The notes under the pieces were generated by a model that worked only from the letters and a program-made list of their open reading frames with translations, was not told the DNA's origin and did not search any database. From positions 4,886,001 to 4,950,000 of the forward strand of contig NZ_CP041402.1 of assembly GCF_007018905.1 (NCBI RefSeq): DNA of 64,000 nt, given 5' to 3'. This document shows, one piece after another, positions 15,244 to 39,571 of this stretch; within the stretch, counting starts at the first letter, position 1; every line of letters begins with the position of its first letter. Position numbers and translations under genes: made by a program. Source of the DNA: Tardiphaga sp. vice304. GTDB lineage: Bacteria; Pseudomonadota; Alphaproteobacteria; Rhizobiales; Xanthobacteraceae.

Positions 15244-15275
15244 CGGATCCTCCTGTGAAAATTAAACGATAATGT

Positions 15276-18273: not shown

Positions 18274-18304
18274 CGAAATGCCTGCTGTTCGGCCTTTCCG
18301 CGGG

Positions 18305-18420
18305 TAGTCCCCGCGAAAGCGGGGACCCATAACCACGGCAGAGGAAGAGAAGCACGAATAGTTCCACAGCATTCCATCGATAAGACAGAGGCTATGGGTC
18401 CCCGCTTTCGCGGGGACGAC
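18305..18420. repeat. Family E repeat (GTCCCCGC hairpin pair)
   Basis: GTCCCCGCGAAAGCGGGGAC at 18307-18326 and the related GTCCCCGCTTTCGCGGGGAC at 18398-18417 flank about 70 bases and can pair locally or with each other. It lies between pimF and pimA. Confidence 0.75.
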
Positions 18421-20549: not shown

Positions 20550-20590
20550 GGCGTTCTCCTTGGACAGCGTTCTTGGCGGTTTCGCACTGC

Positions 20591-20603
20591 GGAATTTAAT
20601 TCC
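20591..20603. promoter_or_regulatory. Candidate IclR-family operator between pimF and iclR-type gene
   Basis: GGAATT-T-AATTCC is a perfect palindrome extended by TGC on the left and ACA on the right. The TGGAAT...ATTCCA theme is usual for IclR-family sites. TTGACA at 20609-20614, just beside it, could be a -35 for the regulator. Confidence 0.55.
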
Positions 20604-20686
20604 ACATCTTGACAAAGAGGGTTATTTTGAAGAGCGTCGCTTGTCAACGAGGGACGCGCGACAAGCGCCGGCAGTTCCAGGGAATC

Positions 20687-21556
20687 ATGAAACGTCCAGC
20701 CAAGAATGTGGCGACAGATCGCAGTTTCGTCGTCGCGCTTGCGCGCGGCCTCGAAGTATTGCGTGCCTTTCGTCCCAATGACGGGCTGCTCGGCAATCAG
20801 GAGATTGCCGCCCGCACCAATCTGCCGAAGCCTACCATTTCGCGGCTGACCTATACGCTGACCAAACTCGGCTACCTTACACCGGTGCCGCGGTTCGAGA
20901 AGTATCAACTCGCGCCGGCAGCTATGGCCCTGGGGTATGCTGCACTTGCGAACCTTGGCGTTAAGCATCTTTCCGAAAGCTTTCGCGACGAGCTGATGCG
21001 GCAGACCGGCGGCGCGGTGGCCGTCGGCGCGCGCGACCGATTGAGCATGATCTATTTCGGGCAGAGCCGCTCCAGCCTCACCGTCGGCGTGCAGCTCGAT
21101 GTCGGCTCGCGTATCCCGATCGCGACGACCGCGATGGGCCGCGCCTATTTCTGGGCGTTGCCGCCCGAGGAACGCGCGCAATTGCTGCGTGAGTTCCGTG
21201 AACATTACGGCAGCCGCTGGTCGAAGATGCGCGACGGACTCGAGCGTTCCGGCGAAATGGTCGCACGTTACGGATTTGTCATTTCCGCAGGAGAGTGGCA
21301 GGACGACGTCCACGCCGTCGGCGTCGCGCTCAAACTGAATGATGGCACCGGACCTTACGCTTTCAATTGCGGTGCGCCGGCGTTTCGCTTTACCGAAGAG
21401 CGATTGCGCACCGACATTGGACCTCGCTTGTTGGCGATGGTAAGGAACATCGAAGCGGCACTGGGCGGCACGTCTGCGCCACCTGCCAGCAAAATCGCAT
21501 CCAAAAAAATCAAACCGGGAGGCAAAGTTGCTCGTGTGGTCGATGGGATCAGATAA
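20687..21556 (+). CDS. IclR-family transcriptional regulator
   Basis: A 289-residue DNA-binding regulator. The N-terminal winged helix (about 12-75) includes ALARGLEVLRAF and NQEIAARTNLPKPTISRLTYTL (written across the recognition helix region, LPKPTISRLTYTL). The C-terminal effector domain has AVGARDRLSMIY and PIATTAMGRAYFWAL, typical IclR ligand-domain phrases. AGGGA lies five bases before the ATG at 20687. It diverges from pimF and precedes the liv transporter by 75 bases, so it probably controls dicarboxylate or fatty acid uptake and oxidation together. The inducer is not known. Confidence 0.87.
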   Translation: MKRPAKNVATDRSFVVALARGLEVLRAFRPNDGLLGNQEIAARTNLPKPTISRLTYTLTKLGYLTPVPRFEKYQLAPAAMALGYAALANLGVKHLSESFRDELMRQTGGAVAVGARDRLSMIYFGQSRSSLTVGVQLDVGSRIPIATTAMGRAYFWALPPEERAQLLREFREHYGSRWSKMRDGLERSGEMVARYGFVISAGEWQDDVHAVGVALKLNDGTGPYAFNCGAPAFRFTEERLRTDIGPRLLAMVRNIEAALGGTSAPPASKIASKKIKPGGKVARVVDGIR

Positions 21557-21631: not shown

Positions 21632-22438
21632 ATGATGCAGGCACTCGCTCAGCAGAACGCAACCACCTCGGTTGCGCCGCTGCTTGCCGTTCACGACGTC
21701 AGTGTCGTGTTCGGCGGCATCATCGCGTTGAACGGCGTCTCGTTCGATATGCAGAAGGGTCATATCCTCGGCCTGATCGGGCCGAACGGCGCCGGCAAGA
21801 CCACGCTGTTCAATTGTCTCAGCCGCCTTTATCAGCCGAGCAAGGGCGACATCCTGCTCGAAGGCGAGAGCATTCTGAAACGCCCGCCGCACAAGATCTC
21901 CGAAATCGGGATCGGCCGCACGTTCCAGAACGTCGCTTTGTTTCCAAATCTTTCCGTGCGCGACAACGTCCGCATCGGCACGCATGCCCGCACCAACAGC
22001 GACATCGTCAGCGATTCGCTGACGCTGCCATGGGTGCGCCGTGGCGAAGCCGACATCAACCGCCGGGTGAACGAGATTCTCGGCTATCTCGATCTGCACG
22101 ACGTCGCGGACACCGTTACGGCCGGCCTGCCGTTCGGCACCCAGAAGCGCGTCGAACTGGCGCGCGCGCTGGCCGCCGAGCCGAAGATCCTGCTGCTCGA
22201 CGAGCCCGCCGGCGGCCTCAATCACGAGGAAGTCCACATTCTCGGCGACCTGATCCGCCAGATCCGCAACGACCGCGGCGTCACCGTTCTGCTGGTCGAG
22301 CATCACATGGGCTTGGTGATGTCGATCGCCGATCATGTGGTGGCGCTGAACTTCGGCAAGAAGCTGGCGGAAGGCACGCCGCATCAAGTCCAGAACGACC
22401 CGGACGTCATCAAGGCCTATCTGGGGAGCAAGGACTAA
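21632..22438 (+). CDS. livG: Branched-chain-type ABC transporter ATPase, LivG-like
   Basis: Cytoplasmic ATPase of a HAAT-family importer; 268 residues from the ATG at 21632 (a second ATG follows directly). Walker A GPNGAGKTT is at 50-58, Walker B LLLLDEP-type segment ends in D190-E191, and the switch histidine is in VEHHMG. The signature is LPFGTQKR in place of LSGGQ, a variation common in LivG-type subunits. The LivG-specific insertion follows GRTFQNVALFPNLSV. The stop overlaps the livF start by one base. Likely substrate, given neighbours, is a dicarboxylic or fatty acid rather than an amino acid (inference). Confidence 0.92.
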   Translation: MMQALAQQNATTSVAPLLAVHDVSVVFGGIIALNGVSFDMQKGHILGLIGPNGAGKTTLFNCLSRLYQPSKGDILLEGESILKRPPHKISEIGIGRTFQNVALFPNLSVRDNVRIGTHARTNSDIVSDSLTLPWVRRGEADINRRVNEILGYLDLHDVADTVTAGLPFGTQKRVELARALAAEPKILLLDEPAGGLNHEEVHILGDLIRQIRNDRGVTVLLVEHHMGLVMSIADHVVALNFGKKLAEGTPHQVQNDPDVIKAYLGSKD

Positions 22439-23151
22439 TGACCGCGATGCTCAATGTGAAGGACCTGCGCGCTTATTACGGCCAGGTCCAGGCGCTGCAC
22501 GGCCTCGAGTTCGATCTCAAGGAAGGCAGCATGACCACGCTGCTCGGCGCCAACGGCGCCGGCAAGACCACGACGCTGCGGGCGATCTGCAACATGATCC
22601 GCTCCACCGGCACGATCGAATTCGAAGGCGCCAAGCTCGACAACCGCTCGACCGAAAACATCGTGCGACTCGGCATAGCGCATGTGCCGCAGGGCCGCGG
22701 CACCTTCACCAACATGACGGTGGAAGAGAATCTGCAGCTCGGGGCCATCACCCGCAAGGACACCAAGGCGATCTCGTCCGACATCGAGCGGATGTACGAT
22801 CATTTTCCGAAGCTGAGGGAACGCCACGCCCAGCAGGCCGGCACGCTGTCCGGCGGCGAGCAGCAGATGCTGGCCGTGGCGCGCGCGCTTATGCTGCGAC
22901 CGCGCCTGATGCTGCTGGACGAGCCGTCATTCGGCCTGGCTCCCCTGATCGTGCGCGACATGTTCAAGATTCTCGGCAAGATCAACCGCGAGGACAAGGT
23001 CACCATCCTGGTCGTCGAGCAGAACGCGCAGCTCGCGCTGGAACTCGCCGACAAGGCCTATGTGATCGAAACGGGACGCATCGTGATGTCCGGCACCGCC
23101 GACGAGATCGCGAACAACGAAGACGTCCGTAAATCCTATCTGGGATACTGA
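22438..23151 (+). CDS. livF: Branched-chain-type ABC transporter ATPase, LivF-like
   Basis: Second ATPase of the importer, 237 residues. Walker A GANGAGKTT is at 37-45, the LivF mark HVPQGRGTF follows, then signature LSGGEQQ near 138 and Walker B LMLLDEPSFGLAP near 157. Start and livG stop share one base (TAATG), so translation is coupled. Confidence 0.93.
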   Translation: MTAMLNVKDLRAYYGQVQALHGLEFDLKEGSMTTLLGANGAGKTTTLRAICNMIRSTGTIEFEGAKLDNRSTENIVRLGIAHVPQGRGTFTNMTVEENLQLGAITRKDTKAISSDIERMYDHFPKLRERHAQQAGTLSGGEQQMLAVARALMLRPRLMLLDEPSFGLAPLIVRDMFKILGKINREDKVTILVVEQNAQLALELADKAYVIETGRIVMSGTADEIANNEDVRKSYLGY

Positions 23152-23178: not shown

Positions 23179-24057
23179 ATGGAGCTCTTTACCAATCAAG
23201 TCCTGGCTGGCATCGCCACCGGCGCGATCTACGCCTGCATGGCGCTCGCCGTGGTGATGATCTATCAGGCGATCGATCATCTGAATTTCGCACAAGGCGA
23301 AATGGCGATGTTCTCGACATTTTTGGCCTGGCAGATGATGCAGTGGGGCGTGCCGTATTGGGGCGCCTTCGTGCTGACGCTGGTGTTCTCGTTCCTCGGC
23401 GGCATCCTGATCGAGCGGCTGCTGTTCAAGCCGCTGGCCAAGGCGCCGGTGCTGACCCATGTCGCTGGCTTCATCGCGCTGTTCGCGATCATCAACAGCG
23501 TTGCCGGCCTGCTGTGGGATTTCACCATCAAGCAGTTCCCGTCGCCGTTCGGCTCCTCGCCGTTCCTCGGCAGCCAGCTGATCTCGACGCATCAGGCCGG
23601 CATGATCGGCGTCACTCTGGTGCTCTTGATCCTGCTGTTCGGCTTCTTCCGCTACACCCGCGTCGGTCTCGCCATGCGGGCGGCGGCATCAATGCCTGAA
23701 TCGGCGCGGCTGGTCGGCATCAACACCGGCTGGATGATCGCGCTCGGCTGGGGCATGGCGGCCGCGATCGGTTCGATCGCCGGCATGCTGATCGCCCCCG
23801 TGGTGTTCCTCGAGCCCAACATGATGGGCGGCGTGCTGATCTACGGCTTTGCCGCAGCGGTGGTCGGCGGTCTGTCCAGCCCGCTCGGCGCGGTATGCGG
23901 CGGCTTCCTGGTCGGCGTCTTCGAGAACCTGGTCGGCACCTATATTCCCGGCGTCGGCAACGAATTGAAACTGCCTATCGCGCTGGCGCTGATCATCACC
24001 GTGCTGGTCGTCAAACCCAATGGCCTGTTCGGCCGTGCCATCGTGAAGCGAGTTTGA
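23179..24057 (+). CDS. livH: Branched-chain-type ABC transporter permease, LivH-like
   Basis: Inner-membrane permease of 292 residues with about eight hydrophobic segments. The N-terminus GIATGAIYACMALAVVMIYQA and the central MRAAASMPESARLVGIN coupling region are family marks (quoted in short parts: GIATGAIYACMALAV and ESARLVGIN). It follows livF by 27 bases and precedes livM by two. Confidence 0.92.
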   Translation: MELFTNQVLAGIATGAIYACMALAVVMIYQAIDHLNFAQGEMAMFSTFLAWQMMQWGVPYWGAFVLTLVFSFLGGILIERLLFKPLAKAPVLTHVAGFIALFAIINSVAGLLWDFTIKQFPSPFGSSPFLGSQLISTHQAGMIGVTLVLLILLFGFFRYTRVGLAMRAAASMPESARLVGINTGWMIALGWGMAAAIGSIAGMLIAPVVFLEPNMMGGVLIYGFAAAVVGGLSSPLGAVCGGFLVGVFENLVGTYIPGVGNELKLPIALALIITVLVVKPNGLFGRAIVKRV

Positions 24058-24059
24058 TC

Positions 24060-25088
24060 ATGAGCGCCGTTCAAGAAGCATCCACCGCTCCCGTCATCGA
24101 CGCGGTTCCAAAGAAAGCCCTGTCGCTCGGCCCGATGGCGTCGATAGTGGTCCTGGCGCTGCTGATCGCTACGCCGCTGTTCGTGAAGAACTTCTTCATC
24201 TTCCAGATGACGATGTGGCTGATCTACGCGATCGCGGTGCTGGCACTCAACATCCTCACCGGTGCCAGCGGGCAGTTTTCGCTGGGCCAGAGCGCGTTCT
24301 ATGCGATCGGTGCCTATACGTCGGCGATTCTGATCGAACACGGCAACGTCAACTACATCCTGACGCTGCCGGTAGCCGGTCTTGTCTGCTTCATCGCCGG
24401 CTTCCTGTTCGGCCTGCCCGCGCTCCGATTGAGCGGCATCTATCTGGCGCTGGCGACCTTCGCGCTGGCGGTGGCGATGCCGCAGCTGCTCAAGCTCGGC
24501 GTGTTCGAACACTGGACCGGCGGCGTGCAGGGCCTGGTCGTGACCAAACCGGAAGCGCCCGAGATCTTCGCAACGCTGGGGCTGAAAGTCTCGCAGGACA
24601 TGTGGCTGTACTACTTCACGCTGGTCGTCTCGATCATGATCTACGTGTTCTCGGTCAACCTGCTGAAGTCCCGCTCCGGCCGCGCGATGATGGCAATCCG
24701 CGACAACGAGATCGCGGCTTCCGCGATGGGCGTCGATGTCTCGCTGTACAAGACGTTGGCGTTCGGCGTCTCGGCCGGCATCACCGGCGTGGCCGGCGGC
24801 CTCGGCGGCATCGCCGTGCAGTTCGTGGCACCGGACGGCTACACCATCCAGCTCGCGGTCGCCCTGTTCCTCGGCATGGTGGTCGGCGGCGTCGGCTGGT
24901 TGCCCGGTTCGCTCGCCGGTGCTGCCTTCATCGTGTTCGTGCCGAATATCGCCGAGCACATCTCGAAGGGTCTGTCCGGCGCCGTGTTCGGCGTCATCCT
25001 GATCATGATCATCTTCCTGGTGCCGCACGGCGCCCGGCAAATCGCCTATGGGGCCCAGAGCCTGATCGGCAAACTGCGTAAAAACTGA
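24060..25088 (+). CDS. livM: Branched-chain-type ABC transporter permease, LivM-like
   Basis: Second permease, 342 residues, about ten membrane segments, with NILTGASGQFSLGQSAFYAIGAY (family segment, here split as NILTGASGQFSLG and QSAFYAIGAY) and the coupling loop MAIRDNEIAASAMGVDV. The start is two bases behind the livH stop. The first of the six binding-protein genes follows after ten bases. Confidence 0.92.
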   Translation: MSAVQEASTAPVIDAVPKKALSLGPMASIVVLALLIATPLFVKNFFIFQMTMWLIYAIAVLALNILTGASGQFSLGQSAFYAIGAYTSAILIEHGNVNYILTLPVAGLVCFIAGFLFGLPALRLSGIYLALATFALAVAMPQLLKLGVFEHWTGGVQGLVVTKPEAPEIFATLGLKVSQDMWLYYFTLVVSIMIYVFSVNLLKSRSGRAMMAIRDNEIAASAMGVDVSLYKTLAFGVSAGITGVAGGLGGIAVQFVAPDGYTIQLAVALFLGMVVGGVGWLPGSLAGAAFIVFVPNIAEHISKGLSGAVFGVILIMIIFLVPHGARQIAYGAQSLIGKLRKN

Positions 25089-25098
25089 AGGATCTACC

Positions 25099-26325
25099 GT
25101 GACTTCCAGAACTAGCCTGCGCTTCGCTGCCCTTTCCACCGCTGCCGTCGTTCTCACTTTCTCCGGCAGCGCTTTTGCCCAGAAGAAGTACGACACCGGC
25201 GCCACCGACACCGAGATCAAGATCGGCAACATCATTCCCTATAGCGGCCCGGCCTCGGCCTACGGCATCATCGGGAAGATGGAAGAAGCCTATTTCAAGA
25301 TGATCAACGATCAGGGCGGCATCAACGGCCGCAAGATCAACTTCATCACTTATGACGACGCCTACTCGCCGCCGAAGGCCGTCGAACAGGCCCGCAAGCT
25401 GGTGGAATCGGACGAGGTGCTGTTCATCTTCGGGCCGCTCGGCACGCCGTCGAACACCGCGATCCAGAAGTACATGAACGCCAAGAAGGTGCCGCAGCTG
25501 TTCGTGGCCACCGGCGCCACCAAGTTCGGTGAGCACAAGACGTTCCCCTGGACGATGGGCTGGCAGCCCGCCTACCAGAGCGAAGGCCAGATCTTCGGCA
25601 AATACATCCTGACGGAAAAGCCGGCCGGCAAGATCGGCGTGCTGTACCAGAACGACGACCTCGGCAAGGATCTGCTGAAGGGCCTGAAGGACGGCCTCGG
25701 CGACAAGGCGTCGATGATCGTGATGGAGGAAAGCTACGAAGTCTCCGAGCCGACCATCGAGAACCATCTCGTCAAGCTGAAGGCGAGCGGAGCGGACGTG
25801 CTGGTCAGCATCTCGACGCCCAAGTTCGCCGCGCAGGCGATCAAGAAGGTCGGCGAGCTCAACTGGAAGCCGATGTTCTTCCAGAGCAATGTCGGCTCCT
25901 CGGTCGCCTCGGTGATGCGTCCCGCCGGTATCGACAACTCGCAGGGCGTGATGTCGCTGGCCTATGCAAAGGACGGTTCCGATCCGCAGTGGGACAACGA
26001 CGAAGGCATGAAGAAGTATCGCGACTTCGTCGCCAAATACGCGCCCTTCGCCAACCTGGCCGACTCGTCCGCCGTTTATGGCTACGGCCAGGCACAGACC
26101 GTGGTGCAGGTGTTGAAGCAGGCCGGCGACGACCTGACCCGCGCCAACATCATGAAGCAGGCCGCTTCGCTGAAGGACTATGCGACGGACACCATGCTGC
26201 CCGGCGTCAAGCTCAACACCTCGGCGACCGATTACTATCCGATCGAGCAGCTTCGCATGATGCGCTTCACCGGCGAGAAGTGGGACGTGTTCGGTCCGCC
26301 GATCGAAAGCCATCTGGGCAACTAA
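25099..26325 (+). CDS. Periplasmic ABC binding protein, tandem array member 1 of 6
   Basis: Type I periplasmic ligand-binding protein of 408 residues, with a GTG start seven bases after AAGGA. Signal peptide residues 1-27, likely cleaved before QKKYDTG. The mature N-terminus carries TDTEIKIGNIIPYSGPASAYG. It shares KTFPWTMGWQPAYQSE and KQAGDDLTRAN with member 2. Ten bases behind livM, so it is the member most clearly co-transcribed with the permease. The neighbouring pim genes suggest dicarboxylate or fatty acid ligands; the sequence does not show this. Confidence 0.9.
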   Translation: MTSRTSLRFAALSTAAVVLTFSGSAFAQKKYDTGATDTEIKIGNIIPYSGPASAYGIIGKMEEAYFKMINDQGGINGRKINFITYDDAYSPPKAVEQARKLVESDEVLFIFGPLGTPSNTAIQKYMNAKKVPQLFVATGATKFGEHKTFPWTMGWQPAYQSEGQIFGKYILTEKPAGKIGVLYQNDDLGKDLLKGLKDGLGDKASMIVMEESYEVSEPTIENHLVKLKASGADVLVSISTPKFAAQAIKKVGELNWKPMFFQSNVGSSVASVMRPAGIDNSQGVMSLAYAKDGSDPQWDNDEGMKKYRDFVAKYAPFANLADSSAVYGYGQAQTVVQVLKQAGDDLTRANIMKQAASLKDYATDTMLPGVKLNTSATDYYPIEQLRMMRFTGEKWDVFGPPIESHLGN

Positions 26326-26330
26326 TAAAA

Positions 26331-26475
26331 CTGTCGTTCCGGGGCGCGGGCGGCGTGAGCCGAACGCGATCCCGGAACCTCGACATGTTCATCGTCCGAT
26401 ATCGGGATTCCCCGCCACTCCAATTGGAGTGTCTGAGGTTCGCTCGCGCTGACGCGCCCGCGCCCCGGAATAACA
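26331..26475. repeat. Family B repeat, copy 2
   Basis: CTGTCGTTCCGGGGCGCGGG opens it and CGCCCCGGAATAACAG closes it. The inner palindrome CACTCCAATTGGAGTG is present. It begins six bases after the array member 1 stop. Confidence 0.8.
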
Positions 26476-26506
26476 GAGTCACAACAACAAAAGTGCCTAA
26501 CATCTC

Positions 26507-26542
26507 AGCCCCTTGCGACTAACGTCGCAGGGGGCTTTTTCT
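26507..26542 (+). terminator. Terminator after array member 1
   Basis: AGCCCCTTGCGAC pairs with GTCGCAGGGGGCT, followed by a T-run. Bases 26524-26547 are nearly identical to 30774-30796 behind member 4. Confidence 0.85.
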
Positions 26543-26639
26543 TGCTGCCGGAGTCGAAAACGTATTAGGTAAGGGCGGATAAAAAATCCGGCACTGAAAA
26601 TCACGACGCTTTTCAGGTAGCACTCATGGGAGTTTCGAA

Positions 26640-27866
26640 ATGCCTGCCAATCGTTCGCGCGTGGCCCTGACCGTCGCCGCGACCTTCGCGTTTGCCGCCA
26701 CCGGCAGCGTCGCCTTTGCCCAGAAGAAGTACGACACCGGCGCCTCCGATACCGAGATCAAGATCGGCAACATCATGCCGTATAGCGGGCCTGCTTCCGC
26801 CTATGGCGTGATCGGCAAGACCGAAGAAGCCTACTTCAAGATGATCAACGAACAGGGCGGCATCAATGGCCGCAAGATCACCTACATCACCTATGACGAC
26901 GGCTACTCGCCGCCGAAGGCCGTCGAGCAGGCGCGCAAGCTGGTAGAGTCAGATGAGGTTCTGTTCATCGCCAGCGCGCTCGGCACGCCGTCGAACACCG
27001 CGATCCAGAAATACATGAACGCCAAGAAGGTGCCGCAGCTATTCGTTGCCACCGGAGCCACCAAGTTCGGCGAGTTCAAGGACTTTCCGTGGACGATGGG
27101 CTGGCAGCCGGCGTACCAGAGCGAGTCGCGAATTCACGCGGCCTATTTGCTGCGGGAGAAGCCCGATGCCAAGATCGGCGTGATGTACCAGAACGACGAC
27201 TTCGGCAAGGACATGCTGAAAGGCCTCAAGGACGGCCTTGGCGCCAAGGCGTCGATGATCGTCGCCGAGGAAAGCTACGAAGTGTCGGAGCCGACCATCG
27301 ACTCGCACGTCATCAAGCTCAAGGCGGCGGGAGCCGACACGTTCGTCAGCTTCACCACCCCGAAATTTGCCGCGCAAGCGATCAAGAAGGTCGCCGAGCT
27401 CGGCTGGAAGCCGATGTTCATCCAGAGCAACGTCGGCTCCTCGGTCGGCAGCGTGATGAAGCCGGCCGGCTACGCCAACTCGCAGGACATACTGTCCGCG
27501 CACTACGCCAAGGACGGCTCCGATCCGAAGTGGGACAATGACGAGGGCATGAAGAAATTCTACGCCTTCCTCGCCAAATATGCCCCGACCATGGACCGCA
27601 ATGACGGCTCGGTGGTGTACGGCTACGGCCAGGCGCAAACCATCGTCCAGGTGCTCAAGCAGGCCGGCGACAACCTGACCCGCGAGAACATCATGAAGGA
27701 AGCAGCCAACCTGAAGGCGTTCACTCCCGACACGCTGCTGCCGGGCGTCACCATCACCACCACGGCGACCGACTTCTACCCGATCGAGCAATTGCAGATG
27801 CAGCGCTTCAAGGGCGAGACCTGGGAACTGTTCGGCCCGGTATACCAGGGCAAGATCGGCGGGTGA
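26640..27866 (+). CDS. Periplasmic ABC binding protein, tandem array member 2 of 6
   Basis: 408 residues, ATG start with GGGAG eight bases before it. Signal peptide ends near VAFA before QKKYDTG. The closest relative in the array by eye is member 1 (shared KYMNAKKVPQLFVATGATKF region and FPWTMGWQPAYQSE). C-terminal phrase FYPIEQLQMQRF. It sits behind a terminator and a 314-base spacer, so it needs its own promoter or readthrough. Confidence 0.9.
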   Translation: MPANRSRVALTVAATFAFAATGSVAFAQKKYDTGASDTEIKIGNIMPYSGPASAYGVIGKTEEAYFKMINEQGGINGRKITYITYDDGYSPPKAVEQARKLVESDEVLFIASALGTPSNTAIQKYMNAKKVPQLFVATGATKFGEFKDFPWTMGWQPAYQSESRIHAAYLLREKPDAKIGVMYQNDDFGKDMLKGLKDGLGAKASMIVAEESYEVSEPTIDSHVIKLKAAGADTFVSFTTPKFAAQAIKKVAELGWKPMFIQSNVGSSVGSVMKPAGYANSQDILSAHYAKDGSDPKWDNDEGMKKFYAFLAKYAPTMDRNDGSVVYGYGQAQTIVQVLKQAGDNLTRENIMKEAANLKAFTPDTLLPGVTITTTATDFYPIEQLQMQRFKGETWELFGPVYQGKIGG

Positions 27867-27873
27867 CAACAAA

Positions 27874-28019
27874 CTGTCGTTCCGGGGCGCGGGCGGCGTG
27901 AGCCGAACGCGAACCCGGAACCTCGGAATGTTCATCGTCCCATGTCGGGATCCCCGCCACTCCAATTGGAGTGTCTGAGGTTCGCTCGCGCTGAGGCGCT
28001 CGCGCCCCGGAATGACAGC
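27874..28019. repeat. Family B repeat, copy 3
   Basis: Same ends as copy 2 and the same CACTCCAATTGGAGTG palindrome. It starts eight bases after the member 2 stop, so copies 2 and 3 sit at matching positions. Confidence 0.8.
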
Positions 28020-28026
28020 TGAACCC

Positions 28027-28062
28027 AAGGCCCCGCTGCTCCTGCTGCGGGGCCTTATTGTT
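28027..28062 (+). terminator. Terminator after array member 2
   Basis: AAGGCCCCGC and GCGGGGCCTT form a 10-bp stem with a 10-base loop, followed by ATTGTTG. The T-tract is weak. Confidence 0.65.
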
Positions 28063-28129
28063 GATGCGGCGGTGTGAAACGTGTTGGGTCGGCTCGATCT
28101 TCGACCCCCCGCCCGCTTCAAGGACTGCC

Positions 28130-29353
28130 ATGCCCGCCCTGCTTTCCCGCGCCGCTGCCCTGCCGGTCGCTGCCGCCTTCCTCATCGCCTGCGTCGCCGC
28201 CCGTGCCGAGCCGCGCTACGACCCCGGCGCCTCCGACACCACGATCAGGATCGGCAACATCATGCCCTATAGCGGCCCGGCCTCCGCCTATAGCGTCGCC
28301 GGCCGCATCGAGGCGGCCTATTTCCGCATGATTAACGACCAGGGCGGCATCCATGGCCGCAAGATCGAGTTCATCTCCTATGACGACGCCTACAACCCCG
28401 CCAAGGCGGTCGAGCAGGCCCGCAGACTGGTGGAGAGCGACGAGGTGCTGGCGGTATTCGGCCCGCTCGGCACGCCGTCCAATGCTGCGATCCAGCGCTA
28501 TCTCAACGGCAAGCGCGTGCCGCAATTGTTCGTCGCCGCCGGCGCCAGCGGCTTCGGCAACCAGCGCGATTACCCGTGGACGATGGCTTTCCAGCCGCCG
28601 TACCAGAGCGAGGGTCGCATCTACGCCAAATACCTGCTGGCCGAAAAGCCCGATGCGAAGATCGCTGTGCTGTACCAGAACGACGACCTCGGCAAGGAAC
28701 TGTTGAAGGGCCTCAAAGACGGACTCGGCGACAAGGCCGCGATGATCGTCGCCGCCGAGGGCTACGAGGTCACCGAACCGACCGTCGATTCCCGCATCAT
28801 CAATCTGAAGGCCAGCGGCGCCGATACTTTCATCAGCGTGACCACGCCGAAATCCGCCGTGCAGAGCCTGCGCAAGGTCGCCGAACTCGGCTGGAAGCCA
28901 CTCTACATCCAGAGCTATGCAAGTGCATCGGTGGCCACGGTGATGAAGCCCGCCGGCTTCGACAATGCACAGGGCGTCATCTCGGCCTATTACGCCAAGG
29001 ACGGCGCCGATCCGCAGTGGAACACGGACGAGGGCATGCAGCGCTACGCCAGCTTCCTCGCCAAATATGCGCCGGACGTCAGCCGCAGCGACATCTCCGT
29101 GATCTATGGCTATGGCGCAGCACAGACGATGGTGCAGGTGCTCACGCAGGCCGGCGATACGCTGACGCGCGACAACATCATGAAGCAGGCGGCCAGCCTG
29201 GTCGACTTCGTCCCCGACACGGTACTGCCCGGCGTCAGGCTCAACACCTCGGCAACCGATTTCTATCCGATCGAGCAGTTGCAGATGATGCGCTTCACCG
29301 GCGAGAGCTGGCAGATGTTCGGCCCGGTGCTCGACGGACGTCTGGCGGAGTAA
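28130..29353 (+). CDS. Periplasmic ABC binding protein, tandem array member 3 of 6
   Basis: 407 residues from the ATG at 28130 (AAGGA six bases upstream). It is the most diverged of the array at the mature N-terminus, with AEPRYDPGASDTTIRIGN instead of QKKYDTG...EIKIGN. It keeps PYSGPASAY, FAAGASGF-type segment (VAAGASGFGNQRDYPWTM) and QAGDTLTRDN. Some ligand-side positions differ (FQPPYQSEGR), so specificity may differ. No clear terminator follows it before member 4. Confidence 0.9.
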   Translation: MPALLSRAAALPVAAAFLIACVAARAEPRYDPGASDTTIRIGNIMPYSGPASAYSVAGRIEAAYFRMINDQGGIHGRKIEFISYDDAYNPAKAVEQARRLVESDEVLAVFGPLGTPSNAAIQRYLNGKRVPQLFVAAGASGFGNQRDYPWTMAFQPPYQSEGRIYAKYLLAEKPDAKIAVLYQNDDLGKELLKGLKDGLGDKAAMIVAAEGYEVTEPTVDSRIINLKASGADTFISVTTPKSAVQSLRKVAELGWKPLYIQSYASASVATVMKPAGFDNAQGVISAYYAKDGADPQWNTDEGMQRYASFLAKYAPDVSRSDISVIYGYGAAQTMVQVLTQAGDTLTRDNIMKQAASLVDFVPDTVLPGVRLNTSATDFYPIEQLQMMRFTGESWQMFGPVLDGRLAE

Positions 29354-29427
29354 TGCTGTAGGCGAGACTGCCTCCTTCTCCGTCCCCCCGACCACCTCCG
29401 CGTGCTTGTGTGACCCAGCGCTTCTTC

Positions 29428-29456
29428 TTGATGATCTCCTGCGAAAGGTATTTAAT
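29428..29456 (+). promoter_or_regulatory. Candidate promoter of array member 4
   Basis: TTGATG at 29428-29433 and TTTAAT at 29451-29456 are 17 bases apart, 46 bases before the ATG of member 4. Confidence 0.45.
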
Positions 29457-29502
29457 CGCGGCAAGGCCACAACGGCCGTCGAAAATATCAGGGAGCTGAC
29501 GA

Positions 29503-30726
29503 ATGCCCATGCCATTGCGTGCAATTGCGGCCGTGTCTGCCGTTGCCCTCAGCGTCGTGCTTTGCGGCAGCGCACTCGCCCAGAAAAAATACGACATCGG
29601 CGCCACCGATACCGAGATCAAGATTGGTAACATCATCCCTTACAGCGGACCGGCATCCGCCTACGGCATGATCGGCAAGACCGAGGCCGCCTATTTCAGG
29701 ATGATCAACGAGAAAGGCGGCGTCAACGGCCGCAAGATCAGCTTCATTTCGTACGACGATGGCTATAGCCCGCCGAAGGCGGTCGAGCAGGTACGCAAGC
29801 TGGTGGAGAGCGACGAAGTGCTGCTAGTGTTCGGACCGCTCGGTACGCCGTCCAACACCGCGATCCATAAATATCTCAACGGCAAGAAAGTGCCGCAACT
29901 GTTCGTTGCCACCGGCGCGACCAAATGGAACGACCCGAAGAACTTCCCGTGGACGATGGGCTGGCAGCCGAGCTACCAGTCCGAGGCGCAGATCTACGCG
30001 AAATGGCTGATCAAGGAGAAGCCGGACGCCCGTATTGCGGTGCTTTACCAGAACGACGATTTCGGCAAGGACTACCTCAAGGGCCTCAAGGACGGGCTCG
30101 GCAGCAAGGGCGCGATGATCATCGTCGAAGAGAGCTACGAGATCGCCGAGCCGACCGTCGACACCCACATCGTCAAGATCAAGGCACAGAACCCGGACGT
30201 CCTGATCAGTTTCGTCACACCGAAATTTGCCGCCCAGACCATCAGGAAGATCGCCGAACTCGGCTGGAAGCCGCTGCACATGGTCGCCAACGTTTCGGTG
30301 AATGTCGGTAGCGTGATGCAGCCCGCAGGCTTCGAGAACGGCCAGGGCGTGCTGTCGGCAGCCTACGCCAAGGACGGCACCGACGCGCAGTGGAACGACG
30401 ACGCCGGCATGAAGCGGTGGTCGGCCTTCCTCAACAAATACATGCCGGACGCCAACCGCTCCGACAGCAACCACATCTACGGCTACGGCGCGGCCCAGAC
30501 GCTGGTCAAGGTCCTGGAAATGTGCGGCGACGACCTGACCCGCGCCAATGTGATGAAGCAGGCGGCCAGCCTGAAGGACTTCGAAGTCGATACCCTGCTG
30601 CCCGGTATCCGGATCAATACCTCGGCGACCGACTTCGCGCCTATCTCGCAACTGCAAATGCAGCGCTTCAAGGGCGAGCGATGGGAACGGTTCGGCGAAA
30701 CCATCAGTGGCGACGTCACGCAATAG
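29503..30726 (+). CDS. Periplasmic ABC binding protein, tandem array member 4 of 6
   Basis: 407 residues. Signal peptide ends SALAQ before KKYDIGATDTEIKIGN. It belongs with members 5 and 6: all three have ATKWNDPKNFPWTMGW and a cysteine in (M/Q)CGD(D/N)LTR, where members 1-3 have QAGD. The C-terminal phrase is FAPISQLQMQRF. A plausible promoter precedes it and a strong terminator follows, so it looks like an independent unit. Confidence 0.9.
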   Translation: MPMPLRAIAAVSAVALSVVLCGSALAQKKYDIGATDTEIKIGNIIPYSGPASAYGMIGKTEAAYFRMINEKGGVNGRKISFISYDDGYSPPKAVEQVRKLVESDEVLLVFGPLGTPSNTAIHKYLNGKKVPQLFVATGATKWNDPKNFPWTMGWQPSYQSEAQIYAKWLIKEKPDARIAVLYQNDDFGKDYLKGLKDGLGSKGAMIIVEESYEIAEPTVDTHIVKIKAQNPDVLISFVTPKFAAQTIRKIAELGWKPLHMVANVSVNVGSVMQPAGFENGQGVLSAAYAKDGTDAQWNDDAGMKRWSAFLNKYMPDANRSDSNHIYGYGAAQTLVKVLEMCGDDLTRANVMKQAASLKDFEVDTLLPGIRINTSATDFAPISQLQMQRFKGERWERFGETISGDVTQ

Positions 30727-30756
30727 CAACCGGGCAGCGCACCGCGCTCGTCGCAC

Positions 30757-30792
30757 AAAGCCCCCGTGACGGCGTCGCGGGGGCTTTTTCTT
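30757..30792 (+). terminator. Terminator after array member 4
   Basis: AAAGCCCCCG pairs with CGGGGGCTTT around a short inner stem and is followed by T5. Its 3' part nearly repeats the terminator behind member 1. Confidence 0.85.
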
Positions 30793-30885
30793 GCTGAAGG
30801 CGCGCGACCGGTGTTCAATGGAAGCAGGGGTCGCAGAACTCCGGTCAAACGACACGACACAACGCTATCATCAGGGAGACATGGA

Positions 30886-32115
30886 ATGCCCAAGTTGCAT
30901 CTGCATCTGGCTACTCTGCCGGCTGCCTTCGCTTTGCTCGCCGCCGCGACGACGGGGGCGCTGGCGCAAAAGAAATACGATACCGGCGCCAGCGATACCG
31001 AAATCAAGATCGGCAACATCATGCCGTATAGCGGGCCGGCCTCGGCCTATGGCGTGATCGGCAAGACCGAAGAGGCCTACTTCAAGAAGATCAATGCCGA
31101 AGGCGGCATCAACGGCCGCAAGATCACCTTTATCTCCTACGATGACGCCTACAGCCCGCCGAAGACCGTCGAGCAGGCGCGCAAGCTGGTGGAACTGGAC
31201 GAAGTGCTTGTCGTGTTCAATCCACTGGGAACGCCATCGAACTCGGCGATCCACAAATACATGAACGGCAAGAAGGTGCCGCAACTGTTCGTCGCCACCG
31301 GCGCTACCAAGTGGAACGATCCGAAGAACTTCCCGTGGACGATGGGCTGGCAGCCGAGCTACCAGTCCGAAACGCAGATCTTCGCAAAGTATCTTCTGAA
31401 GGAAAAGCCGGCCGCCAAGATCGCCGTGCTCTATCAGAATGACGATTACGGCAAGGACTATCTGAAAGGGCTGAAGGACGGCCTTGGCGCCAAGGCGTCG
31501 TCGATGATCATCATCGAGGAAAGCTATGAGACCTCGGAGCCGACCATCGACAGCCATATCGTCAAGCTGAAATCGCTGAACGCCGATGTCTTCGTTAACA
31601 TCACCACGCCGAAATTCGCGGCGCAGGCGATCAAGAAGGCCGCCGAGATCGGCTGGAAGCCGCTGCACTATCTCAACAACGTCTCGGCGTCGGTCGGCAG
31701 CGTGATGAAGCCCGCCGGCTTCGAGAACGGTCAGGGCATCATCTCTGCCGCCTATCTGAAAGACGTGTCGGACCCGCAATGGGACAACGACCCCGGCATG
31801 AAGACCTTCCTGGCTTTCCTGGAGAAGGACTTTCCGGAAGGCAACAAGCTCGATGGCAGCGTGGTGGTCGGCTACGGCGCGGCCCAGACCCTGGTGCAGG
31901 TGCTGCGGCAATGCGGCGATAACCTCACCCGGGAGAATGTGATGAAGCAGGCGGCCAGCCTGAAGGACTTCCGCACCGAAATGCTGCTGCCCGGCATCAA
32001 GATCAATACCTCGGCCACCGACTTTGCGCCGGTCAGCCAGTTGCAGCTGATGCGCTTCAAGGGCGAGAAATGGGATCTGTTCGGCGAGATCATCAGTTCC
32101 GACGTCGGCGGCTGA
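30886..32115 (+). CDS. Periplasmic ABC binding protein, tandem array member 5 of 6
   Basis: 409 residues from the ATG at 30886 (GGGAG seven bases upstream; an out-of-frame ATG lies between). Signal peptide ends GALAQ before KKYDTGASDTEIKIGN. Shares WNDPKNFPWTMGWQPSYQSE with member 4, and has one extra serine in GAKASSMIIIEESYE, shared with member 6. It has FNPLGTPSN where most members have FGPLGTPSN. Confidence 0.9.
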   Translation: MPKLHLHLATLPAAFALLAAATTGALAQKKYDTGASDTEIKIGNIMPYSGPASAYGVIGKTEEAYFKKINAEGGINGRKITFISYDDAYSPPKTVEQARKLVELDEVLVVFNPLGTPSNSAIHKYMNGKKVPQLFVATGATKWNDPKNFPWTMGWQPSYQSETQIFAKYLLKEKPAAKIAVLYQNDDYGKDYLKGLKDGLGAKASSMIIIEESYETSEPTIDSHIVKLKSLNADVFVNITTPKFAAQAIKKAAEIGWKPLHYLNNVSASVGSVMKPAGFENGQGIISAAYLKDVSDPQWDNDPGMKTFLAFLEKDFPEGNKLDGSVVVGYGAAQTLVQVLRQCGDNLTRENVMKQAASLKDFRTEMLLPGIKINTSATDFAPVSQLQLMRFKGEKWDLFGEIISSDVGG

Positions 32116-32151
32116 TGCTTCATTCCGTTTGACGGAACTTGACAGCAAACG

Positions 32152-32181
32152 GCCCTCCGCCATCCAGCGGAGGGCTTTTTG
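32152..32181 (+). terminator. Terminator after array member 5
   Basis: GCCCTCCGC pairs with GCGGAGGGC around a 6-base loop, followed by T5. Confidence 0.85.
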
Positions 32182-32296
32182 ATTTGAGGCCATGCTGCGA
32201 ACGCGATAGAACAGTTCGCAGATGCAAAAGCATCGAAGTTCAACCAAGAAGATGAGCCGCCGCCTCGCCGCTGCGGACTCACGGGAAGGAAACCGA

Positions 32297-33535
32297 ATGT
32301 CTGCCCGTTACGCCCGGCTTATGCCGATGTCGGCCGCTGCCCTCATGTTGGCCATCGCTGGCCCCGCGCTTGCGCAGAAGAAATACGACACCGGCGCCTC
32401 TGACACCGAAATCAAGCTCGGCAACATCGTGCCCTATAGCGGCCCGGCTTCCGCCTATGGCGTCGTCGGCAAGGCGCAGTCCGCCTACTTCAAGATGATC
32501 AACGAACAGGGCGGCATCAACGGCCGCAAGATCAACTACATCTCCTATGACGACGCCTACAGCCCGCCTAAATCGGTTGAGCAGACCCGCAAGCTGGTCG
32601 AGAGCGACGAAGTGCTTCTGATGTTCAGCGCGCTGGGCACCGCATCCAACACCGCCATCCATAAATACCTCAACGGCAAGAAAGTGCCGCAGCTGTTTCT
32701 CGCCACCGGCGCCACCAAGTGGAACGACCCGAAGAACTTTCCGTGGACGATGGGCTGGCTGCCGAGCTACCAGAGCGAGGGCCGCATCTACGCCAAATAT
32801 CTGATGAAGGAAAAGCCCGGCGCGAAAATCGCCGTGCTCTACCAGAACGATGATTTCGGCAAGGATTATCTGAAGGGCCTGAAGGATGGGCTCGGCGATA
32901 AGGCGTCCTCGATCGTGATCGAGGAAAGCTACGAGCTGACGGAACCGACGGTGGATTCCCACATCGTCAAGATCAAGTCGCTGAACCCCGACGTGGTGGT
33001 TTCCTTCGCGACGCCGAAATTCGCCGCGCAGAGCATCAAGAAGATCGCCGAGCTCGGCTGGAAGCCTTTCCAGATCGTGCCCAATGTCTCCGCCTCGATC
33101 GGCGCGGTGATGAAGCCCGCCGGCTACGAGAACGCGCAAGGCGTGATCTCCGCCGCCTACGCCAAGGACGCCACCGATCCGCAGTGGAAGGACGATTCGG
33201 GCATGAAGGCCTATCACGCCTTCCTCGACAAATACGCGCCAGACATCAACCGCGCCGATAGCTCGGCGATGACCGGCTACAACATCGCCGAAACCATGGT
33301 GATCCTGCTCAAGCAGTGTGGCGATGACCTTACCCGCGCCAATGTGATGAAGCAGGCCGCCAGCCTGAAGGGCATCCAGCAGACCGGCCTGCTGCCGGGC
33401 GTTCTGATCAAGACGAGCGACAAGGATTTCTCGCCGATCGAGCAGTTGCAACTGATGAAATTCGAGGGCGAGCGCTGGGTGCTGTTCGGCGACGTGCTCG
33501 ACGGCGAAGTCGGCGGCGGCGCCACCGGCGGATAG
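32297..33535 (+). CDS. Periplasmic ABC binding protein, tandem array member 6 of 6
   Basis: 412 residues from the ATG at 32297, seven bases after GGAAGGA. Signal peptide ends PALAQ before KKYDTGASDTEIKLGN. It differs from the others at FSALGTASNTAIHKY and MGWLPSYQSE, and has a glycine-rich tail (GEVGGGATGG). It has QCGDDLTRAN like members 4 and 5 but an FSPIEQLQLMKF C-terminal phrase nearer members 1-3. Last gene of the array; no permease follows on this transcript. Confidence 0.9.
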   Translation: MSARYARLMPMSAAALMLAIAGPALAQKKYDTGASDTEIKLGNIVPYSGPASAYGVVGKAQSAYFKMINEQGGINGRKINYISYDDAYSPPKSVEQTRKLVESDEVLLMFSALGTASNTAIHKYLNGKKVPQLFLATGATKWNDPKNFPWTMGWLPSYQSEGRIYAKYLMKEKPGAKIAVLYQNDDFGKDYLKGLKDGLGDKASSIVIEESYELTEPTVDSHIVKIKSLNPDVVVSFATPKFAAQSIKKIAELGWKPFQIVPNVSASIGAVMKPAGYENAQGVISAAYAKDATDPQWKDDSGMKAYHAFLDKYAPDINRADSSAMTGYNIAETMVILLKQCGDDLTRANVMKQAASLKGIQQTGLLPGVLIKTSDKDFSPIEQLQLMKFEGERWVLFGDVLDGEVGGGATGG

Positions 33536-34439: not shown

Positions 34440-35480
34440 TTGAACACGACCATTTTGCTGTTCCTGTTGCAGGACGGCATAACCAACGGCGCGATTTACG
34501 CGCTGCTCGGCCTGGCGCTGGTGCTGGTGTTCGCAGTGACTCGGGTGATCCTGATCCCGCAGGGAGAGTTCATCACCTTTGGCGCGCTGACCTATGCCAG
34601 CCTGTCGGCCGGCCAGGTGCCGGGCACGATCCGGCTGGCGGTCGCGATGGGCGTGGTGGCGTTCGGCTTCGACCTCTTCACCGCCCGCAAATCGCTGCAT
34701 GCAGCCCGCGTGCTGCGCAGCTTCGCCATCAATGTCGCGCTGCCGCTGGCCATCTGGGGCGCGACGCTGGCGCTGGCGGGCCACCAGGCCGGCGTCGCCG
34801 TCAACATCGCGCTGTCGCTCGCCATCGTCGCCGCGATCGGCCTGTATCTCTACCGCATCGCCTTTCAGCCGATCGCGCACGCCTCCGTGCTGGTGCTGCT
34901 GATCGCCTCAGTCGGCTGCCATCTCGCGCTGCAGGGCTTTGGCCTCGTCTTCTTCGGCGCCGAGGGCCAGCGCGCGCCGGCGCTTTCCAGCGCCGTGCTG
35001 ACGCTCGGCCCGCTGCGTTTCACCGGGCAGAGCATCGCGGTCTATGCCATCACCATCGCTTTAATCGTCGGCCTCTGGCTGTTCTTCGGCTTCACGCTGT
35101 ATGGCAAGGCGCTGCGCGCCACCGCGGTCAACCGGCTCGGTGCCCGTCTGGTCGGCATCCGCACCTCGCTCTCCGGCCAGATCGCCTTCCTGCTGGCCTC
35201 GGTGATCGGCGCGATCTCCGGCATCCTGATCATCCCGATCACCACGCTGTATTACGACACCGGATTCCTGATCGGCCTGAAAGGCTTCATCGCGGCGATC
35301 ATCGGCGGTCTGGTCAGCTATCCTCTCACCGCAGTGGCGGCGATCGTGGTCGGTGTCGTCGAGGCGTTCTCGTCGTTCTATGCCAGCAACTTCAAGGAGG
35401 TCATCGTCTTCACGCTGATCCTGCCGGTGCTGGTGCTGCGCTCGCTGGCAGCACCCGCGGTCGAAGAAGAAAAGGATTGA
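34440..35480 (+). CDS. LivH-type permease of an aromatic-acid ABC importer
   Basis: 346-residue inner-membrane permease with about eight to nine hydrophobic segments. The start is a TTG at 34440, with GGGGAG ten bases before it; there is no in-frame ATG nearby. N-terminal GITNGAIYALLGLALVLVFAV and the coupling region ARLVGIRTSLSGQ identify LivH (short parts: GITNGAIYALLGLAL and RLVGIRTSL). It is about 50 residues longer than the livH of the first transporter, with an extra hydrophobic segment near 95-135. Probable CouSTU-type component; p-coumarate uptake is inferred from neighbours. Confidence 0.88.
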   Translation: MNTTILLFLLQDGITNGAIYALLGLALVLVFAVTRVILIPQGEFITFGALTYASLSAGQVPGTIRLAVAMGVVAFGFDLFTARKSLHAARVLRSFAINVALPLAIWGATLALAGHQAGVAVNIALSLAIVAAIGLYLYRIAFQPIAHASVLVLLIASVGCHLALQGFGLVFFGAEGQRAPALSSAVLTLGPLRFTGQSIAVYAITIALIVGLWLFFGFTLYGKALRATAVNRLGARLVGIRTSLSGQIAFLLASVIGAISGILIIPITTLYYDTGFLIGLKGFIAAIIGGLVSYPLTAVAAIVVGVVEAFSSFYASNFKEVIVFTLILPVLVLRSLAAPAVEEEKD

Positions 35481-35485
35481 GCGCA

Positions 35486-37258
35486 ATGAACCAGCGTCTC
35501 CTTCCGATCCTGCTGTTCGCGGCCGTGATGGCAGTGATCCCGTTCATTCCCGGCATGCCGCCGTTCTGGATCGTGCTCCTGGACAATATCGGCCTGGCCG
35601 CGCTGGTGGCGATGGGGCTGGTGATCCTGACCGGCGTCGGCGGTCTCACCTCGTTCGGCCAGGCCGCGTTCTGCGGCTTCGGCGCCTACACCACGGCCGT
35701 GCTGACCACCACCTATGGCCTGTCGCCTTGGCTGACGCTGCCGCTGTCGCTGCTGGTCAGCGGCGGCGTCGCGGTGTTCCTCGGCCTGATCACCGTGCGG
35801 CTCTCCGGCCACTACCTGCCCCTCGGTACTATCGCCTGGGGCATCAGCCTGTTCTATTTGTTCAGCAAGCTGGAATTTCTCGGCCGCAACGACGGCATCT
35901 CCGGCATCCCGCCGCTGTCGATCGGCACGCTGAAGATGCTCGACCCCGGCACGATCTATTTCCCGATCTGGATCGCGGTGATCGTCTGCGCGCTGCTGTC
36001 GATGAACCTGCTGGACTCCCGCACCGGCCGCGCCATCCGCGCGCTGCGCCGCGGCCATGTCGCCGCCGAAGCTTTTGGCGTGCAGACGGCGCGTGCCAAG
36101 CTATTGGTCTTCATCTATGCCGCCGTCCTTGCCGGCCTGTCCGGCTGGCTCTACGCGCATTTCCAGCGCGCGGCCAATCCGACGCCGTTCGGACCGCAGG
36201 CCGGCATCGAATATCTGTTCATCGCCGTGGTCGGCGGCGCCGGCTATGTCTGGGGCGGCGTGCTGGGCGCCGCCATCGTCGTGATCCTCAAGGAAGCGCT
36301 GCAGAGCTACCTGCCGCTTTTGTTCGGCGGCAGCGGCCAGCTCGAGACCATCGTGTTCGGCATCCTGCTGGTCGCGCTGCTGCAATTCGCACCGACCGGG
36401 ATGTGGCCATGGCTGACGTCGCTGTTGCCGTTCAAGGCTGCGCGCAAGCAGCCGGACATCGCGACGGAGCCGCCGCCGAAGCTGGCACTTGAGGCCGAAG
36501 CCGGCGTGCTGCTGCAGGTGGACAAAGCCCGCAAGGAGTTCGGCGGCGTGATCGCCGTCAACGACGTCTCGTTCGACGTGACGGCACGCGAGATCGTGGC
36601 GCTGATCGGCCCCAACGGCGCCGGCAAGAGCACGACCTTCAACCTCATCACCGGCGTGCTGACATCGACTTCCGGCGCCATTTCCGTGCGCGGCCGCAGC
36701 GTCGATGGCGCGCCGCCGCAGGACATCGTCCGGCGCGGCATCGCCCGCACCTTCCAGCACGTCAAGCTGGTGCCGGACATGACCGTGCTGGAAAATGTCG
36801 CGCTCGGCGCGCATCTGCGCGGCCGCAGCGGGGCGATCGCCAGCATGCTGCGGCTCGACCGCGCCGACGAAGCAAAACTGCTGGCCGAGGCCGCGCGACA
36901 GATCGCGCGCGTCGGGCTCGCCGACCAGATCGACCAGCTCGCAGGCTCGCTGTCGCTGGGCCAGCAGCGCATCGTCGAGATCGCCCGCGCGCTTTGCGTC
37001 GATCCGCAACTGCTGCTGCTCGACGAGCCCGCCGCCGGCCTGCGCCACATGGAGAAGCAGCAGCTCGCCGCCCTGCTCCGCACCCTGCGTGACGGCGGCA
37101 TGTCGGTGCTGCTGGTCGAACACGACATGGGCTTCGTCATGGACCTCGCCGACCGCATCGTCGTGCTGGATTTCGGCACCAAGATCGCCGAAGGCACCCC
37201 GGCCGCGATCAAGTCCAATCCTGCCGTCATCAAGGCCTATCTCGGAGCGGTCGCATGA
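35486..37258 (+). CDS. Fused LivM permease-LivG ATPase of the aromatic-acid importer
   Basis: A 590-residue fusion. Residues 1-315 form a LivM-type permease ([26 protein letters not shown] coupling loop). A 35-residue linker with [14 protein letters not shown] leads to a LivG-type ATPase (about 345-590) with Walker [10 protein letters not shown] near 374, GRTFQ-like [10 protein letters not shown], signature LSLGQQR, Walker [12 protein letters not shown] and VEHDMG. The first transporter in this window has these as separate genes. Start is five bases behind the livH stop; its end overlaps livF by four bases. Expression of one chain fixes permease and ATPase in equal amounts. Confidence 0.92.
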
Positions 37259-37986: not shown

Positions 37987-37990
37987 TGTG

Positions 37991-38139: not shown

Positions 38140-38145
38140 TGAAAA

Positions 38146-39563: not shown

Positions 39564-39571
39564 AGACGGCG

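Follow-up and report, generated by a model that had tools for sequence, protein, structure and literature searches.

Why should a single liv-type ATP-binding cassette (ABC) importer stand beside six genes for periplasmic binding proteins? The question is raised by a 64,000-nucleotide stretch of the Tardiphaga sp. vice304 genome (contig NZ_CP041402.1, positions 4,886,001 to 4,950,000 of the forward strand; hereafter the window, with coordinates counted from its first nucleotide), where six such genes, here called S1 to S6, follow two ATPase and two permease genes next to a pim beta-oxidation operon. We consider it likely that six paralogous periplasmic receptors for fatty or dicarboxylic acids feed this one pim-linked core of the HAAT (liv-type) family, and that most of the receptors are separately transcribed. 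Medium- and long-chain dicarboxylic and fatty acids would be caught by the six receptors, imported through the one core and oxidised by the products of the divergent pim operon. Transporters of this kind matter to soil bacteria that use plastic-derived diacids or the breakdown products of suberin and cutin.

The receptor array and the pim-linked core

A first-pass annotation of the window had described six consecutive paralogous binding-protein genes, and this was borne out: all six frames are consecutive, open, intact and full length, and their products score 177.6-200.3 bits against PF13458 (cut-off 31.7). Pairwise protein identity is 60.7-74.0%. The segments PYSGPASAYG and FPWTM(G/A), given in that annotation as shared, recur in general but not exactly in S3, which has PYSGPASAYS and YPWTMA. 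S1 alone is closely spaced behind livM; the remaining gaps between genes are 149-314 nt.

25099..26325, plus strand: S1 binding protein, 408 residues, starting 10 nt past livM
26640..27866, plus strand: S2 binding protein, 408 residues
28130..29353, plus strand: S3 binding protein, 407 residues, the most divergent copy
29503..30726, plus strand: S4 binding protein, 407 residues (AlphaFold2 model with pLDDT 84.7 and pTM 0.84)
30886..32115, plus strand: S5 binding protein, 409 residues
32297..33535, plus strand: S6 binding protein, 412 residues

Genome-wide, PF13458 gave 46 matches, 45 of them over the cut-off, so that an abundance of such proteins is normal for this organism. The S family itself has eight matches in the genome at E 1e-80, six in the array and one at 5.485 Mb; the position of the eighth is not among the matches listed.

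Directly upstream lies the one liv-type core that had been annotated, and the divergent pim genes lie beyond it. A second complete core, which that annotation had missed, lies 0.9 kb downstream of S6.

14053..18372, minus strand: pimC, pimB and pimA of the divergent pim beta-oxidation operon (NCBIfam models)
18465..20546 (start approximate), minus strand: pimF-like fatty acid oxidation alpha subunit, named from its position
20580..20594, no strand assigned: 15-bp near-palindrome TTTCGCACTGCGGAA between pimF and pimR, candidate operator of an IclR-type regulator
20609..21556, plus strand: IclR-family regulator, pimR-like (PF01614, PF09339)
21632..22438, plus strand: LivG-type ATPase (PF00005 and PF12399)
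22438..23151, plus strand: LivF-type ATPase (PF00005)
23179..24057, plus strand: LivH-type permease (PF02653)
24057..25088, plus strand: LivM-type permease (PF02653)

The locus thus has the composition of a HAAT system, with a PF13458 binding protein, two PF02653 permeases and two PF00005 ATPases. The BCA_ABC_TP_C tail scored over its cut-off in LivG, and in LivF reached 24.7 against 25.5 bits. The models for the branched-chain amino acid system LivJKHMGF were missed throughout (LivG 270 against 362 bits, LivF 252 against 441, LivH 97 against 379, LivM 120 against 366), and S1, the one copy scored against the binding-protein model PRK15404, reached 65 of 477 bits. The nearest named record for LivM is a Tardiphaga metagenome-assembled genome, at 95% identity. 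Adjacency of the transporter to the pim operon was confirmed by pimA (TIGR03205, 1038 bits, cut-off 706) and pimC (TIGR03204, 858 bits, cut-off 624). PimB is an acetyl-CoA C-acyltransferase (NF005494, 626.5 bits against a cut-off of 615), and for the pimF-like gene the top models were FadB and FadJ, with scores under the equivalog cut-offs. The order pimF, then divergently pimR-livGFHM-S, was kept in all sufficiently long loci except the split arrays described below and locus L080 (L and G numbers are our handles for loci and genomes).

The near-palindrome before pimF and pimR may be an operator for the IclR-type regulator. Of the 74 pim intergenic regions extracted, 64 contain the pattern TTTCGCA-N-TGCGAAA with up to two mismatches; in some of the non-matching regions (Afipia rows) the extraction anchor had landed in coding sequence, and 14 of the 74 aligned rows were inspected.

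The first-pass annotation had proposed fatty or dicarboxylic acids as ligands from the pim adjacency, and this fits both the pimA and pimC scores and published data on two copies from Rhodopseudomonas palustris. As the available portions of the report by Giuliani et al. (2011; PMC3223731) describe it, strain CGA009 carries a three-copy version, RPA3723-3725, adjoining pimFABCDE; thermal shift assays showed binding of fatty and dicarboxylic acids by RPA3723 and RPA3724, whose profiles differed, and a single broad-range transporter feeding pimFABCDE was proposed. Like the window, that cluster joins paralogous binding-protein genes in tandem to ABC genes and the pim operon; it has three copies as against six, and the available text gives no account of terminators, promoters, hairpins or split arrays. 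Assignment of RPA3723-3725 to our S classes was attempted and abandoned as ambiguous, since the published identities (71% and 60%) fit several assignments; among the best 120 of 7999 matches in a protein search, no name settled the mapping. Also in favour of this ligand class, fitness data from beta-proteobacteria were interpreted, in the available part of the study, as indicating ABC importers for diacids of C7 and longer (PMC12543098).

The idea of one importer widened to many ligands, also put forward in the first-pass annotation, fits the pim linkage, the R. palustris thermal shifts, the lack of a Glu226-type acidic residue and a post hoc divergence of the C-lobe (see below), but the copies are probably not simply one transcript, a second core lies downstream and the idea was already in print. 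The multi-receptor importer concept is, in the published text available, largely covered for the three-copy R. palustris version. New here are a member with six copies, the second core, the natural splits, and a layout of individual terminators with, in many copies, a predicted leader hairpin; among the matches listed in searches of the literature on pim transporters, tandem binding proteins, Rhodopseudomonas diacids and Tardiphaga, we recognised no account of the array's expression layout or splitting. Elsewhere, as far as the accessible parts of the reports go, Borrelia burgdorferi Opp has five OppA receptors on one permease and ATPase set, each oppA reportedly with its own promoter and independent regulation, but it transports peptides and belongs to a different receptor family and phylum (PMC5736914). 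Pseudomonas aeruginosa DppA1-A5, complementation-tested on DppBCDF, likewise gives five receptors to one ABC importer (DppA5 failed to complement), but for di- and tripeptides and from another receptor family (PMC4206461). Streptococcus pneumoniae Ami combines five binding proteins with a channel of four proteins, but serves oligopeptides in a Gram-positive organism (PMC11192437).

Age, constraint and ligand pockets of the copies

Comparison of copy number across genomes, together with a protein tree, had been proposed as a check in the first-pass annotation. We ran it on the best 80 of 226 confirmed LivM relatives among species genomes, counting copies in pim-liv-linked arrays with more than 1.5 kb beyond the last copy and including the window and stretches from its genus. 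Arrays were found in Bradyrhizobium, Rhodopseudomonas, Afipia and the window's genus, mostly with two to five copies; the 71 arrays held one (2 arrays), two (17), three (20), four (11), five (19) or six (2) full copies. Six were found in the window and in genome G001 only. In the G001 array (L081) the adjacent LivM consists of two overlapping frames, a frameshift that could be an assembly error, and a different site in G001 holds a second LivM, at 82%. G001 and G003 also have, outside the array, an additional pair of S-family genes that are more distant (L098, L099). The S family was detected in 18/18 genus genomes at E 1e-80. An order-wide sample of 120 genomes contained eight with a match at E 1e-140; three (the window's genome and two others, all of the window's family) had more than one match, and the other five had one.

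Copies were assigned to classes with a tree of 302 rows, from which L001, L002, L005, L006, L007, L011 and copies with fewer than 340 profile positions had been dropped. A quick tree of 85 of these rows, run without bootstrap, gave Shimodaira-Hasegawa-like approximate likelihood ratio test (SH-aLRT) values of 99 each for S4/S4' (16 rows), S5 (11 rows) and S6 (10 rows), all of which include other genera, and of 98 for a single 24-row set holding S1-S3. Array order within the genus is a subset of S1, S2, S3, S4', S4, S5, S6. The ratio of nonsynonymous to synonymous substitution rates (dN/dS) between window copies and their orthologs was 0.088-0.223 for all six (21 pairs). Thus, S1-S6 are old, maintained paralogs, and several classes, being common to several genera, are older than these genera. 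Seven old receptor classes, one core and a known catabolic partner form a natural set for studying how an ABC importer is widened. A recent tandem amplification in this strain was ruled out by the cross-genus classes and by the DNA of the window copies, no two of which share an identical stretch longer than 50 bp.

That the copies are decaying duplicates with no present role, the outcome that would have overturned the annotated proposal, is highly improbable. Fragments of copies do occur in 4/71 arrays (L040, L055 and L091 among them), and draft-assembly errors could mimic these; the six window copies, however, are open and full length and have the dN/dS values given above, and decay of S1-S6 was rejected on those grounds.

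The ligand pockets were compared by mapping positions to LivJ through an alignment, with the Phe276 region placed by eye. We take the LivJ contacts to be Tyr18, Cys78, Ser79, Thr102, Glu226 and the Phe276 region, and Glu226 to be presumably the acidic residue that meets the ligand amino group. The positions of Tyr18, Cys78, Ser79 and Thr102 were invariant across the seven genus classes. At the Glu226-equivalent position we found N in five classes, Y in S3 and G or N in S6, and several C-lobe pocket positions were class-specific. When the pocket was divided by lobe, a division chosen after the pooled result (given below) had been seen, the C-lobe half carried more class information than the rest (1.08 against 0.50 bits, p=0.004; within-lobe p=0.012) and the N-lobe half less (0.13 bits, p=0.024; within-lobe p=0.15, not significant). 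The ligand cleft would then be constant on one side and variable on the other, and each receptor probably prefers different chain lengths or ends. The S4 model matched many periplasmic receptors in structure, including amino acid and aromatic acid binders; its rank-4 match, 4n03, titled a fatty acid ABC transporter substrate-binding protein (20% identity), gives weak model-based support for the proposed ligand class.

These data also bear on whether near-redundant copies are kept to supply more receptor at low substrate. The copies are tandem and strongly conserved, several mapped pocket positions are invariant, and 17/71 arrays have two full copies, all of which a dosage effect could accommodate. 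We nevertheless find this rather unlikely, given that the proteins are 61-74% identical in classes long kept across genera, that class-specific residues occupy C-lobe pocket positions (post hoc), and that the two ligand-binding R. palustris copies differ in profile in the available part of that report (PMC3223731).

Terminators and promoter-like sites between the receptor genes

Intrinsic terminators were found in four of the five gaps between window copies, and the S copies are therefore probably not simply one transcript behind the core. The scan returned none in the S3/S4 gap and none within 200 nt past S6.

26507..26536, plus strand: terminator between S1 and S2, 13-pair stem and T tail
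28027..28056, plus strand: terminator between S2 and S3, found by a scripted test, its inner part weakly listed in one scan
30757..30787, plus strand: terminator between S4 and S5, 14-pair stem
32151..32176, plus strand: terminator between S5 and S6, 10-pair stem
29427..29477, plus strand: promoter-like TTGATG-N17-TTTAAT and small hairpin GGCC-ACAAC-GGCC upstream of S4
30790..30842, plus strand: promoter-like TTGCTG-N17-TTCAAT and hairpin with one G-U pair upstream of S5

The layout is widespread. Terminators were present in 192/208 inter-copy gaps, many of them from closely related species and hence not independent, as against 4.6% of dinucleotide shuffles; the window together with the genus stretches L081-L097 contributed 58/64. 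For gap and upstream counts we dropped L001, L002, L005, L006, L007 and L011 (repeats of genus stretches), L004, L012, L013, L017, L020, L064 and L080 (cut or off-type), L098-L100 (paralogs outside the array) and copies at or below 600 bits. Directly after the T tract, TTG-N20-TTSAAT was found in 102/284 upstream regions, about one-third, against a shuffle mean of 0.2. These two counts, both read from sequence, would fit receptor genes as transcription units of their own, and the terminator layout argues against treating such arrays as a single operon. The exact form CTTG-N20-TTSAAT occurs at three sites in the genome, one of them at S5; no binding-protein gene directly follows either of the other two within the 900 nt translated. 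When upstream regions were grouped, five had no start motif, and inspection covered the opening six rows of every group. Control of the receptors by the pim regulator was considered and rejected, as TTTCGCA-N-TGCGAAA (up to two mismatches) was found in 3/284 S upstream regions and in 1/284 when shuffled.

Just past the promoter-like site, a small hairpin is often predicted, with a mean folding energy of -7.6 kcal/mol, compared with -5.6 kcal/mol in dinucleotide shuffles; the stretch fell below its own shuffles in 77/95 cases, and a gene-proximal control stretch, set against mononucleotide shuffles, in 50/99. In a 15-row subset (14 distinct rows), 70/70 cells were paired, both sides had changed at four of five pairs, and covariation was 0.437 against 0.256 (0/500 shuffles), with slid versions at or below 0.143; the subset had been picked by loop type, which makes this result selective. 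We read the element as a possible leader hairpin on the receptor mRNAs or, alternatively, as a DNA palindrome. A covariance model of the 5' region (R1) was sequence-only and went unused, since the 55-row alignment on which it was built (55 of 75 non-redundant segments) had no consensus pairs.

Taken with the spacing behind livM, this arrangement would have S1 expressed together with the core and the other receptors mostly as separate units, each with its own terminator and often the shared promoter-like site and leader hairpin. Separate units would make the receptor mix adjustable apart from the amount of core.

Two observations on the same DNA stand apart. A scan of the window against Rfam returned no known RNA element at gathering score. 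A dispersed REP-like repeat, TTCCGGGGCGCG..., has seven matches in the window at up to three mismatches (shuffle mean 0.00), and three of these (26337-26360, 27880-27903 and 33605-33628) fall within the receptor array or next to it.

Split arrays and the second core

Five genomes of the genus (G003, G004, G007, G015 and G017; estimated completeness 100%, 2 to 90 contigs) carry an array of five copies at a site away from the pim-liv genes. Each of these genomes has exactly one LivM ortholog at E 1e-60, and it adjoins a pair of S copies. By tree, the separated array is S3, S4', S4, S5, S6 in all five (S4' and S4 being resolved for G015), and the LivM-adjacent pair is S1, S2 in G015, G003 and the named strain L003; in G004, G007 and G017 it was assigned from position alone. 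The break point is thus between S2 and S3 in the five relatives. A distance of 3.1 Mb separates the array from the core in G015, where both are on one contig. Separated copies had omega values of 0.021-0.105 (ten genome pairs per class), and their arrays retained terminators in 18/20 gaps and a promoter-like site before the second, third and fourth copies in all five genomes.

Receptors that are separated from the only orthologous core and yet constrained suggest that action in trans is possible. Being soluble and periplasmic, the proteins would not need genes adjoining the core, and the split arrays suggest the same. It is possible, and we propose it tentatively, that movable, self-contained cassettes, each made up of a promoter, a leader hairpin, the gene and a terminator, supply receptors to one core in trans, with repertoire and core evolving and being expressed independently. 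If this is so, the S2/S3 break, which in G015 leaves the only orthologous core 3.1 Mb away from five receptors, would be a natural demonstration of trans use; genomes with the receptor genes beside the core, together with genomes that have them elsewhere, make trans use testable.

The second core of the window may offer S3-S6 another partner. The S array sits between the pim-linked core and a CouPSTU-type system, as follows.

34440..37986, plus strand: second liv-type core, beginning 0.9 kb past S6, judged CouSTU-like by its neighbours
34440-35480, plus strand: LivH-like gene of the second core
about 35489-37258, plus strand: LivM-LivG fusion of the second core
37255-37986, plus strand: LivF-like gene of the second core
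38146-39327 and 39572-40720, minus strand: X1 and X2, two CouP-type binding proteins matching the 3tx6/4f8j/4fb4 sequence

Against that sequence X1 and X2 score 607 and 673 bits, and the downstream system thus has the CouP-type binding protein expected of CouPSTU. Two cores could then share the array, with S1-S2 feeding the pim-liv core and S3-S6 wholly or partly the CouSTU-type core. The second core is complete and lies close to S6, the S3-S6 array of the five split genomes lies within about 2.4 kb of a CouSTU-type core, and in G015 and G003, the two of these genomes whose LivM-adjacent pair was placed by tree, that pair is S1-S2. We regard this sharing as unlikely, however: the CouSTU-type core has its own CouP-type binding proteins, which the S-family profile did not detect at E 1e-20; in G008 the array stays with pim-liv and the CouSTU-type core is far away; and G019 and G020 (4.1 Mb; the loci bear the names R. 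palustris JSC-3b and R. faecalis) retain two S copies in an array and have no ortholog of the second core, the best match being partial at 39%, in genomes whose completeness is not stated.

Several observations weigh against our preferred reading of one pim-linked core fed by mostly separately transcribed fatty and dicarboxylic acid receptors. As to ligands, the pooled pocket enrichment, which had been set in advance, was not significant (p=0.32). RPA3725 bound none of the ligands tried, in the available account (PMC3223731), and a 2026 model included rpa3725 in its ranking of 20 genes for growth on lignin products, according to the portion available, which could point to another ligand (PMC12844201). 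Some species have just two copies, and Rhodopseudomonas DSM127, with a small genome, is described in the accessible text as growing on C7, C9, C10 and C12 diacids (PMC12016538). As to transcription, 135/208 gaps also pass the terminator test on the opposite strand, and termination between copies may be partial. The promoter-like pattern, in a looser form, is present in the window at S4 and S5 only, being degenerate at S2 and without a match at S3 and S6; a general sigma-70 scan gave zero plus-strand sites in the array region; and RNAalifold found zero consensus pairs in the 55-row alignment of the 5' region, perhaps because loop lengths vary. The pim palindrome, at chance level before S genes generally and absent within four mismatches upstream of the window's S1-S6, leaves common control by the pim regulator without support. 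As to the core, the position of the separated array near a CouSTU-type core in 5/5 genomes makes a switch of partner possible.

The downstream system (34440-40720) is of the same type as CouPSTU (RPA1789 and RPA1791-1793; PMC3610893), although with two CouP-type binding proteins rather than one. As the available text describes CouPSTU, it differs from S1-S6 in handling aromatic cinnamates through binding proteins of another subfamily, and structure 4F8J is CouP bound to p-coumarate (PMC3610893). An acyl-CoA synthetase-like gene (40830-43280; NF009232, 739 bits against a cut-off of 777) adjoins the system.

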